In this document: positions 41,908-44,864 of the stretch, piece after piece | Layout: every line of letters begins with the position of its first letter | Numbering within the stretch: the first letter of the stretch is position 1 | NCBI GenBank assembly: GCA_036504735.1 | Contig: DASXUQ010000005.1 | Location: 279,377-343,376 of the forward strand | DNA from: a bacterium | GTDB lineage: Bacteria > Electryoneota > RPQS01 | DNA: 64,000 nucleotides | Direction: 5' to 3' | Notes under the pieces: model-generated | Databases searched by the model: none | Told to the model about the DNA's origin: nothing | What the model saw: only the letters and a program-made list of their open reading frames with translations | Program-made: the position numbers and the translations under genes

Positions 41908-43548
41908 TCACATCTCCTTGGGCGCGCTGACACCGCAGAGCGAAAGCCCTCGCTGGAGGGCAATCTGAGTTGCACGGCACAGGGCCAAGCGCGCCAGTTG
42001 AAGTTCTTGGGGCTCGGTCAGAACCCGGTGATCATGGTAAAACTTGTGGAACTGCGTCGCCACCTGCCGCAGCCACTCGGTCATCCCGTGCGGATCGCGG
42101 CTTTGCGTCGTGTCGGCGATTACATCCTGAATCTCCCGCAAGCGCCGCAGCAGATCCAGTTCCTCAGGAGTCGTCAGCGGGCTCAGATCCACGTCCGCTC
42201 CCGGATACGGCACACCCGCCTTCTTGAAAATCGACTCAATCCGCGCGTGAGCGTACTGCACGTAGAAGACCGGATTCTCGTCCGACTGCTTCTTGGCCAG
42301 GTCAATATCGAAATCCAGCGGCGTGGACGTGCGGCGCAGCAGGAAGAAGTAGCGCGCGGCATCCACGCCCACTTCCTCGATCAGCTCGGCCATCTCGATA
42401 ATCTGCCCCGCCCGCTTGGACATCTTCACCGGCTCGCCGTCCCGCAGCAGCGTCACGTGCTGCAGCAGCATCACTTCGAGCGGTTGCGGATCAAACCCCA
42501 GCGCCCGCAACGCCGCCTTCATGCGCGATGTGAAACTATGATGATCCGGGCCAAGAATATTCAGCACCGGATTGTAACCGCGTTCGAATTTGTCGGCATG
42601 ATAGGCAATGTCCGGCAGGAAGTAGGTCGCCCGCCCATCCGACGTCACCACTACCCAATCCTGCGTATCGCCGTATTCGGAGGTCTTGATGTAGGTCGCG
42701 CCGTCCTTCACATACACGGCATCGCGTTCGCGCAGTTTCTCCAGAACATGTTGCTCCGCCTGGCGACCGCGCAATTCGCTTTCCAGATACCAGCGGTCGA
42801 ACTCTACCCGGAACGACCCCAGCGTCGCGCGGTGAGACTTCACGAAATACTCAATCGCCAGCGATCCCAACTGCTGCGCCGCCTGCTCAGCCGGCATATC
42901 ATGAAAGCGCGAGCCATGTTCCGCCTTCACCTGCCGCGCCAAATCCATGATATACTCGCCGTGGTAGCCGCCCTCGGGTATCTCCGCCGCAAATCCCAGT
43001 TCGCTCTCATAACGCGCCCGAAGCGATTCGCCCAGCAGCCGCACCTGATTTCCCGCGTCGTTCACGTAGAACTCGGCATCGCAGCGTGCCCCCCGCGCGC
43101 GGAACAGGCGGGTCAGGCTGTCGCCCACCGCCGCCGCACGGGCACTGACCACATTCAACGGTCCCGAAGGATTGGCGCTGACGAATTCGATCAGAATCTT
43201 CTGCCCGGCCAGGTCGTGGCTCTGCCCGAACGTCCCCTCACTCCGCAGGGCATCCGTTGCAATCGAATGCAGAAACGGCGAGGCGAACGTGAAGTTGATG
43301 AACCCCGGCCCCGCCACGCTCTCCGACGCGATCAAGTCACGATTCAGGTGCAGTTTGGAGAGCAACATCTCCGCAATCGCGCGCGGGTTCTTGCCCAGCT
43401 CTTTCGAGTGCACGAGCGCGGCGTTCGTTGCAATATCGCCATGCGTCGCATCCCGCGGTTTTTCGAGCACCACGCGCGGCGCCGCCACTCCCAGCGACTG
43501 GAGCGCTTCGTTCAGTTCGACCGTCAGATGCTGATGTGCTTTGTTCAT
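41908..43548 (-). CDS. argS: Arginyl-tRNA synthetase with altered HIGH motif
   Basis: ArgRS (546 residues) charges tRNA-Arg. The N-terminal tRNA-recognition domain (about 1-100) is followed by the class I catalytic core. Recognisable parts are FVSANPSGPLNVVSARAAAV, YVNDAGNQVRLLGESLRARY, VKMSKRAGQIIEM (KMSKS-like) and the C-terminal anticodon-binding helices (YFFLLRRTSTPLDFDIDLAK, ENPVFYVQYAHARIESI). The HIGH signature normally present after GPL (HxGH) reads NVVS here. The rest of the enzyme looks intact, so I treat it as functional. It follows rsfS by two bases. Confidence 0.95.
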   Translation of the reverse strand: MNKAHQHLTVELNEALQSLGVAAPRVVLEKPRDATHGDIATNAALVHSKELGKNPRAIAEMLLSKLHLNRDLIASESVAGPGFINFTFASPFLHSIATDALRSEGTFGQSHDLAGQKILIEFVSANPSGPLNVVSARAAAVGDSLTRLFRARGARCDAEFYVNDAGNQVRLLGESLRARYESELGFAAEIPEGGYHGEYIMDLARQVKAEHGSRFHDMPAEQAAQQLGSLAIEYFVKSHRATLGSFRVEFDRWYLESELRGRQAEQHVLEKLRERDAVYVKDGATYIKTSEYGDTQDWVVVTSDGRATYFLPDIAYHADKFERGYNPVLNILGPDHHSFTSRMKAALRALGFDPQPLEVMLLQHVTLLRDGEPVKMSKRAGQIIEMAELIEEVGVDAARYFFLLRRTSTPLDFDIDLAKKQSDENPVFYVQYAHARIESIFKKAGVPYPGADVDLSPLTTPEELDLLRRLREIQDVIADTTQSRDPHGMTEWLRQVATQFHKFYHDHRVLTEPQELQLARLALCRATQIALQRGLSLCGVSAPKEM

Positions 43549-43550
43549 GC

Positions 43551-44222
43551 TCAGGATTTGCGTGGACGCTTCGGCGCGGTCTTCTTGGGAGCGACCTTCT
43601 TCGGCGCGGCTTTGGGAACGCTCTTCTTTACCGCCGTCTTCTTAACCGCGGACTTCTTCACCGCTGTCTTGCGCACGGGCATGCCTGAGGCGGTCTTGGC
43701 AGCGCTCTTCGGCTTGGCAACGGTCTTCTTGGCGGCGGCTTTCTTGGCAGCCACCTTCTGGGCGACCGTCTTCTTCGCAGGCGCTTTCGGCTTCACCGTC
43801 TCCGGCTTGACACCCGCCACGGCCACGCGTCGGCGCGAAGCCCGAGGACGCGGGATCGCTTCCTGCTCGTCATTGACTTCCACCACTTCCGCATCGCCCC
43901 ACAGATCTTCCAACCGGTAGAACTCCCGGAAGCTCGGCTGGAACACGTGCACCACCACGTCCACATAGTCCAGCAACACCCAATTCAGCGTGTCCATGCC
44001 TTCACGGTGCAGCACGCGCTCGCCAGTTGCGGTCTTGATCTGCTTTTCGATATTTTCGACAATCGCCCTCACCTGCTGGTCCACATCGCCGGTGCAGATC
44101 ACAAAGTAATCCGCCACCGCTTCCAATTGGCGCAAATCCAGAATCAGGACGTTCGATGCCTTCTTCTCAAGTGCGGCGGCCGCAATGCGGCCTGCGAGTA
44201 TCTGCGAATCCGAAGAACCCAG
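43551..44222 (-). CDS. rsfS: Ribosomal silencing factor RsfS with Lys/Ala-rich tail, CTG start
   Basis: RsfS binds L14 and blocks subunit joining in starvation. Residues 1 to about 120 are the RsfS domain: GSSDSQILAGRIAAAALEKK, VLILDLRQLEAVADYFVICT, DWVLLDY-like NWVLLDYVDVVVHVF and FREFYRLEDLWGDAE. From about residue 125 to 223 the protein is a lysine/alanine/proline-rich, histone-H1-like tail. No ATG, GTG or TTG lies before the conserved N-terminus, but CTG at 44222 has AAGGAG six bases upstream, so CTG is the likely start. The first conventional start, a TTG at 44135, would remove 29 conserved residues. Confidence 0.9.
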   Translation of the reverse strand: MGSSDSQILAGRIAAAALEKKASNVLILDLRQLEAVADYFVICTGDVDQQVRAIVENIEKQIKTATGERVLHREGMDTLNWVLLDYVDVVVHVFQPSFREFYRLEDLWGDAEVVEVNDEQEAIPRPRASRRRVAVAGVKPETVKPKAPAKKTVAQKVAAKKAAAKKTVAKPKSAAKTASGMPVRKTAVKKSAVKKTAVKKSVPKAAPKKVAPKKTAPKRPRKS

Positions 44223-44225
44223 TGT

Positions 44226-44864
44226 CTACTCCTTTGAATCAGGTTTGAGATTTAGCCGCAATCGCGGATAATCTGCTCCGAGAATAACCGTCACGTCAAT
44301 GTCGCGCGGATTCTTCGGGATGTCTGTCGTTACGCGGGCATGATCAATTCCCAGTGAATCGGCAATCGCCATCGCCAGCCCCGCGTTCGTGGTGCGGCTG
44401 ATCACCGCGCTGAATTCGAATCGCTGTGCCCCGGCATTCCCCATGCCGCGCACGTCAAAGTAGCTGCTCCTCGCCCGCAGCGCGGTCATGGCTTTCAGGG
44501 CCAGTCCCTTCTCCCCGCAACCGTTCCAGATTTCCACCCGGATCGGGTGCTCCGCCGGTTCCTTCGAGAGATCCGTCTTCACAGCATTAGACACGGCGGC
44601 AGAACCGAACGTTGAGTTGCGCACAGAATCGGCGCCGGAGGGTGTGGTCGACTTGGTGCTATCCACCGAGGTTGAGCCAAGGTAACTCATACCGTGTGTC
44701 GCCGGGTCCCAGCGTTCCGCGTCCGTGAAATACCACCAGGCGAGCAGGACAACCACGGACACAGCGAAAATCGAGACGCCCAGGCGAAGTCTCTGCCATA
44801 GGTCGAACTCGGTCTTGGAAGGCGGAAGATTCTGGCGTGGAGGAAGGTAAAAGTGGCGTGACAA
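44226..44864 (-). CDS. LytR C-terminal domain (LytR_C) membrane protein
   Basis: A 212-residue protein with one N-terminal membrane segment (about 28-46), a Ser/Thr-rich linker and a C-terminal LytR_C-type domain (PIRVEIWNGCGEKGLALKAM onward, ending VTVILGADYPRLRLNLKP). Such domains are found alone or attached to LytR-CpsA-Psr wall enzymes. Here it stands alone just upstream of rsfS, a pairing I recall from several FCB genomes. The start is a TTG at 44864 with AGGT upstream. Its function is unknown. Confidence 0.8.
   Translation of the reverse strand: MSRHFYLPPRQNLPPSKTEFDLWQRLRLGVSIFAVSVVVLLAWWYFTDAERWDPATHGMSYLGSTSVDSTKSTTPSGADSVRNSTFGSAAVSNAVKTDLSKEPAEHPIRVEIWNGCGEKGLALKAMTALRARSSYFDVRGMGNAGAQRFEFSAVISRTTNAGLAMAIADSLGIDHARVTTDIPKNPRDIDVTVILGADYPRLRLNLKPDSKE

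Follow-up and report, generated by a model that had tools for sequence, protein, structure and literature searches.

The gene for the ribosome-silencing factor RsfS in the window, which is the whole stretch of 64,000 nucleotides analyzed here and comes from an uncultured bacterium, lies in a frame where ATG, GTG, and TTG are absent between the preceding TAG and a TTG at 44135. This raises the question of where RsfS synthesis begins and what the start codon may do. We propose that rsfS begins at a selected CTG, a rare start codon, at 44222 behind a strong Shine-Dalgarno (SD) sequence, and that initiation factor IF3 limits the expression of rsfS together with that of infC; we give this whole reading a probability of about 0.6. 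The features of the locus are as follows.

43551-44222, minus strand: rsfS coding sequence as read from the CTG, 223 aa, stop included; based on Pfam RsfS (PF02410) and conservation from the CTG in 12 genomes
44220-44222, minus strand: putative rsfS start codon CTG, which all 12 readable family and order members share at one alignment column
44229-44235, minus strand: SD sequence AAAGGAG of rsfS; seen in the sequence, with GGAG-like bases kept in relatives and the anti-SD of the genome intact
44226-44228, minus strand: TAG stop of the upstream gene, within the SD-start spacer and in frame with rsfS
44133-44135, minus strand: TTG, the first conventional in-frame codon of rsfS, read as an internal Leu of the ILDLR strand inside the Pfam domain and not as the start
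43899-44186, minus strand: RsfS domain, residues 13-108 (Pfam match)
43554-43886, minus strand: Lys/Ala/Pro-rich C-terminal tail of RsfS (32% K+R, 32% A+P)
44226-44864, minus strand: gene with a LytR_C domain (PF13399, Pfam match), directly upstream of rsfS here and in most of the phylum
41908-43548, minus strand: downstream argS with an ATG start (open reading frame and Pfam match)

On the minus strand, the rsfS start region reads AAAGGAG-TAGACA-CTG, within the context ...GATTCAAAGGAG TAG ACA CTG GGT TCT TCG GAT TCG CAG ATA CTC GCA GGC CGC.... The spacer from AAGGAG to the CTG is exactly 6 bases, and the 16S 3' end of the window genome carries an intact anti-SD (GGATCACCTCCTTT). The TTG at 44135 is located 29 codons downstream of the CTG. 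The sequence-only reading had placed a CTG at 44222 six bases behind AAGGAG, with conventional start codons lacking from the TAG to the TTG; re-reading of the minus strand gave the former exactly and confirmed the latter. The E. coli rsfS neighbourhood differs and contains nadD and cobC.

The protein read from the CTG matched PF02410 with 109 bits against a curated cut-off of 21.6, covering positions 3-98 of the 98 in the profile, and rsfS is present as a single copy in the window genome. Solved RsfS chains 2o5a, 4wcw, 9q40, 3ups, and 6sj5 aligned from query residues 7-14, and residue 11 aligned to residue 11 of M. tuberculosis 4wcw. The N-terminal helix and first strand, as in the solved chains, are present only with the CTG start. 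These alignments and the Pfam match, which begins at residue 13, bear out the earlier claim that 29 RsfS residues lie upstream of the TTG. The protein product is an ordinary RsfS. A typical RsfS is about 115 aa long and has no C-terminal tail of the kind seen here. Tails of 40-111 residues rich in Lys, Arg, Ala, and Pro (29-44% K+R) were observed in all 12 family and order members; the tail resembles histone H1, and its match to Pfam HC2 was below the cut-off.

The comparison covered 13 genomes from the family and order of the window genome, and the N-terminus of rsfS was readable in 12 of them, the remaining one being cut by a contig edge. CTG occupied one alignment column in all 12, with no insertion or deletion between it and the conserved domain. 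GGAG-like bases were found at positions -11 to -8, with G at -8 in 11/12 and A at -1 in 10/12, and the bases between the SD and the CTG, as well as those after the CTG, varied freely. CTG accounts for 35% of the internal Leu codons of these genes, and the other invariant Leu columns contained 2-5 CTG per 12 sequences; since the start column was CTG in 12/12, the start codon is conserved beyond amino-acid constraint. In eight members, including the window, no ATG, GTG, or TTG precedes the CTG in frame. The other four count against the CTG reading in having an in-frame ATG or TTG 2-8 codons upstream, which lacks an SD. Folding of the 12 start regions revealed no common hairpin. The sequence-only reading had proposed an alignment in which relatives would keep both the upstream residues and the CTG, and all 12 did so; no conventional start turned up in place of the CTG in any of them. 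These results indicate that the CTG at 44222 is very probably the genuine rsfS start.

Other families and phyla were then compared at the rsfS start. Elsewhere in the phylum, the apparent start was TTG in families f3 and f5 and GTG in f4, while five members of the sister family f7 (L048, L053, L056, L059, and L062) had ACG, preceded by GGAG at a distance of 6-7 nt, and its sixth member had CTG. No ATG was present in the expected start region of rsfS in f3, f4, f5, or f7. To our knowledge, natural bacterial starts at ACG have hardly been reported. In the phylum of genome G108, ATA was found at the rsfS start column in 25/30 sequences, and ATA makes up 38% of the internal Ile codons. The order of G097 showed ATC in 15/29, ATA in 3/29, and ATG in 5/29, and the phyla of G114 and G061 showed ATT, ATA, and ATC. 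One genome in the phylum of G106 had a CTG that aligned to the TTG of 17 others, mostly behind the same GGAGG. These other near-cognate starts sit at the same position as the window CTG or nearby. Judged from sequence comparison, rsfS starts of the CTG, ACG, ATA, ATC, and ATT type occur in several phyla and belong to the codon class used by infC.

In a tree built from 252 RsfS sequences, strict labels gave at least 11 changes of start codon, a rough figure because support in a single-gene tree is limited. A permissive automatic start caller gave 23 changes; this count was set aside in favor of the strict one because the caller mislabels loci that have an ATG (e.g., L076, L080, L122, and L190). 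E. coli rsfS starts with TTG, as checked in its sequence. An ATG was available for rsfS in 68 of 78 similar named loci, mostly from Bacteroidetes and Paenibacillus. Because many bacteria start rsfS with ATG, any control of rsfS by IF3 cannot be universal.

The specificity of this pattern was examined in a control set of 30 genomes, comprising 19 of this phylum and 11 of other groups picked for odd rsfS starts. An ATG, GTG, or TTG was available for smpB in 28/28 and for rbfA in 30/30 (58/58 together); none was available for rsfS in 19/30 or for infC in 14/27. Among the genes compared, only rsfS and infC showed this lack of a conventional start. In one genome (G008, locus L308), rbfA had ACG where its relatives carry ATG, and an ATG follows three codons later. 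The infC gene of the window genome itself (locus L247, contig C5, around 362133-362336, outside the window) reads GGAGGTCACGCC-ATC, the ATC lying behind GGAGG. Relatives showed CTG, ACG, ATT, and ATC as infC starts, and both ACG and CTG occurred within the phylum of the window genome. Ten further genes of the window also have a long open frame ahead of their first canonical start, and in none of them did the Pfam domain begin earlier than that start, so domain sequence ahead of the first conventional start, as at rsfS, is no routine feature of the window. The odd codons common to rsfS and infC suggest that two factors that oppose the joining of ribosomal subunits share one translational control.

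How such control might work can be framed by the action of IF3, which blocks subunit joining from the 30S side. CUG, AUA, AUC, and AUU reportedly support weak initiation and are discriminated against by IF3, as attributed to Sussman et al. 1996. CUG forms initiation complexes of lower stability than AUG, GUG, or UUG does (PMC11497404), and the GTC start of Streptomyces sigR is repressed by IF3 (PMC5472188). In S. aureus, infC starts with AUA, and AUU and AUA starts behind extended SDs gave about 10% of the output of AUG in poor medium (PMC13009471). RsfS of S. aureus binds uL14 and acts from the 50S side to prevent subunit joining (PMC7125091). When RimM is absent from E. coli, IF3 and RsfS both increase and load onto the 30S and 50S subunits, respectively (PMC13246957), which gives an indirect hint of rsfS control by IF3. 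From the codon class, the repression by IF3, the output of weak starts, the anti-joining roles, and the RimM data, we infer that rsfS translation may follow the balance of free IF3 to 30S subunits together with infC.

In the proposed mechanism, initiator tRNA would initiate rsfS at the CTG at 44222, positioned by the strong SD six bases upstream, and the weak pairing at the first position would be kept by selection. The CTG, ACG, ATA, ATC, and ATT of rsfS are of the kind that IF3 destabilizes on the 30S subunit, and infC starts likewise. Little RsfS would be made while IF3 is abundant compared with 30S subunits. When IF3 is titrated, as with excess or defective 30S subunits or ribosome assembly stress, rsfS and infC would be derepressed together, and this joint derepression would yield matched anti-association factors, IF3 on the 30S and RsfS on the 50S. 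The parts of this proposal differ in strength. Comparison firmly supports the predicted start at CTG and its conservation, together with the strong SD and the codon class shared with infC, and low RsfS expression from a weak start codon is plausible. The limitation of RsfS synthesis by IF3, and its rise upon IF3 titration, is more speculative than the CTG start, and we consider its chances about even. We also suggest tentatively, at slightly less than even odds, that rsfS is the second widespread gene after infC to be held in the IF3-discriminated class (CUG, AUA, AUC, AUU, and ACG) across several phyla, that the ratio of free IF3 to 30S subunits co-regulates both genes, and that ACG is a natural start in one lineage.

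Observations on E. coli count against control by IF3. UUG, the start of E. coli rsfS, is only weakly sensitive to IF3. The rise of RsfS in the E. coli ΔrimM strain could be transcriptional. In addition, expression of a lacZ fusion of E. coli rsfS was highest in exponential phase and unaffected by polyamines (PMC10917681).

It is possible, with odds clearly below even, that the CTG is the true start and merely sets a low, constant level of RsfS, with no regulation specific to IF3. In S. aureus, weak codons lower output about tenfold (PMC13009471), and a title cited in the same paper describes E. coli pcnB as translationally limited by its AUU start, both of which fit a constant low level. However, an ATG with a weak SD would serve equally well for low output, whereas the SD of rsfS is strong and its codon alone is poor, as in infC. 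Moreover, the rsfS codons recur within the near-cognate class that infC uses.

We rejected initiation at the TTG at 44135 as very improbable. This TTG is the first conventional start and the choice of a standard gene caller, and it would give a protein of 194 aa with the upstream residues untranslated. However, such a protein would lack 17 residues at the start of the Pfam match, which the solved chains contain, and the residues upstream of the TTG are conserved as protein. No SD precedes the TTG, and the same codon is CTG or ATG in 5/12 members of the order. Readthrough of the TAG, which would fuse the LytR_C gene to rsfS without initiation at the CTG, fits the window, where both genes share one frame with TAG ACA between them. 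Among the order members, however, the upstream gene ends anywhere between 134 nt ahead of the rsfS start and 4 nt past it, its frame differs, and its stop can be TGA or TAA; only the SD and CTG are constant. Because the upstream stops differ in kind, frame, and distance, we excluded readthrough or a fused frame as having next to no probability. An error of sequencing or assembly that altered a true ATG, GTG, or TTG, conceivable in a draft genome of 19 contigs, was likewise rejected as scarcely credible given the identical codon in 12 independent assemblies.

For annotation, gene callers restricted to ATG, GTG, and TTG will shorten RsfS or put it in the wrong place across entire orders and phyla, and in the window genome they remove the first helix and strand of the protein. 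If IF3 controls rsfS, the factors that separate the 30S and 50S subunits would be wired together at translation initiation, and subunit balance would have a simple way of feeding back on ribosome silencing. The induction of RsfS under assembly stress becomes testable by reporters that differ in one codon.

The infC gene, which encodes IF3, is well known to start with AUU, AUA, or AUC and is autoregulated by IF3. Like rsfS of the window, infC has a near-cognate start behind a strong SD in the same genomes and encodes a subunit anti-association factor; unlike infC, rsfS would be cross-regulated by IF3. Streptomyces sigR resembles the window rsfS in its extensive SD, non-canonical start, and usual misannotation, although it encodes a sigma factor, is confined to one genus, and has IF3 control shown by experiment (PMC5472188). 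In S. aureus, ccpN and cvfC1 (AUA/AUU with an extended SD) share with rsfS a conserved weak start and a strong SD, an arrangement that lowers output in these two genes; they differ in using Ile codons only, in being limited to Firmicutes, and in encoding a gluconeogenesis repressor and a small protein (PMC13009471). E. coli rsfS is the same gene as that of the window and has a non-AUG start, and its UUG was already known (PMC10917681); UUG is a conventional alternative start, whereas CTG, ACG, and ATA are not. A literature search, with arXiv 2008.10758 (on non-AUG-preferring genes) and Hecht et al. 2017 outside its scope, found no description of rsfS with near-cognate starts. As a near-cognate-start gene, rsfS joins infC, pcnB, sigR, ccpN, and cvfC1.
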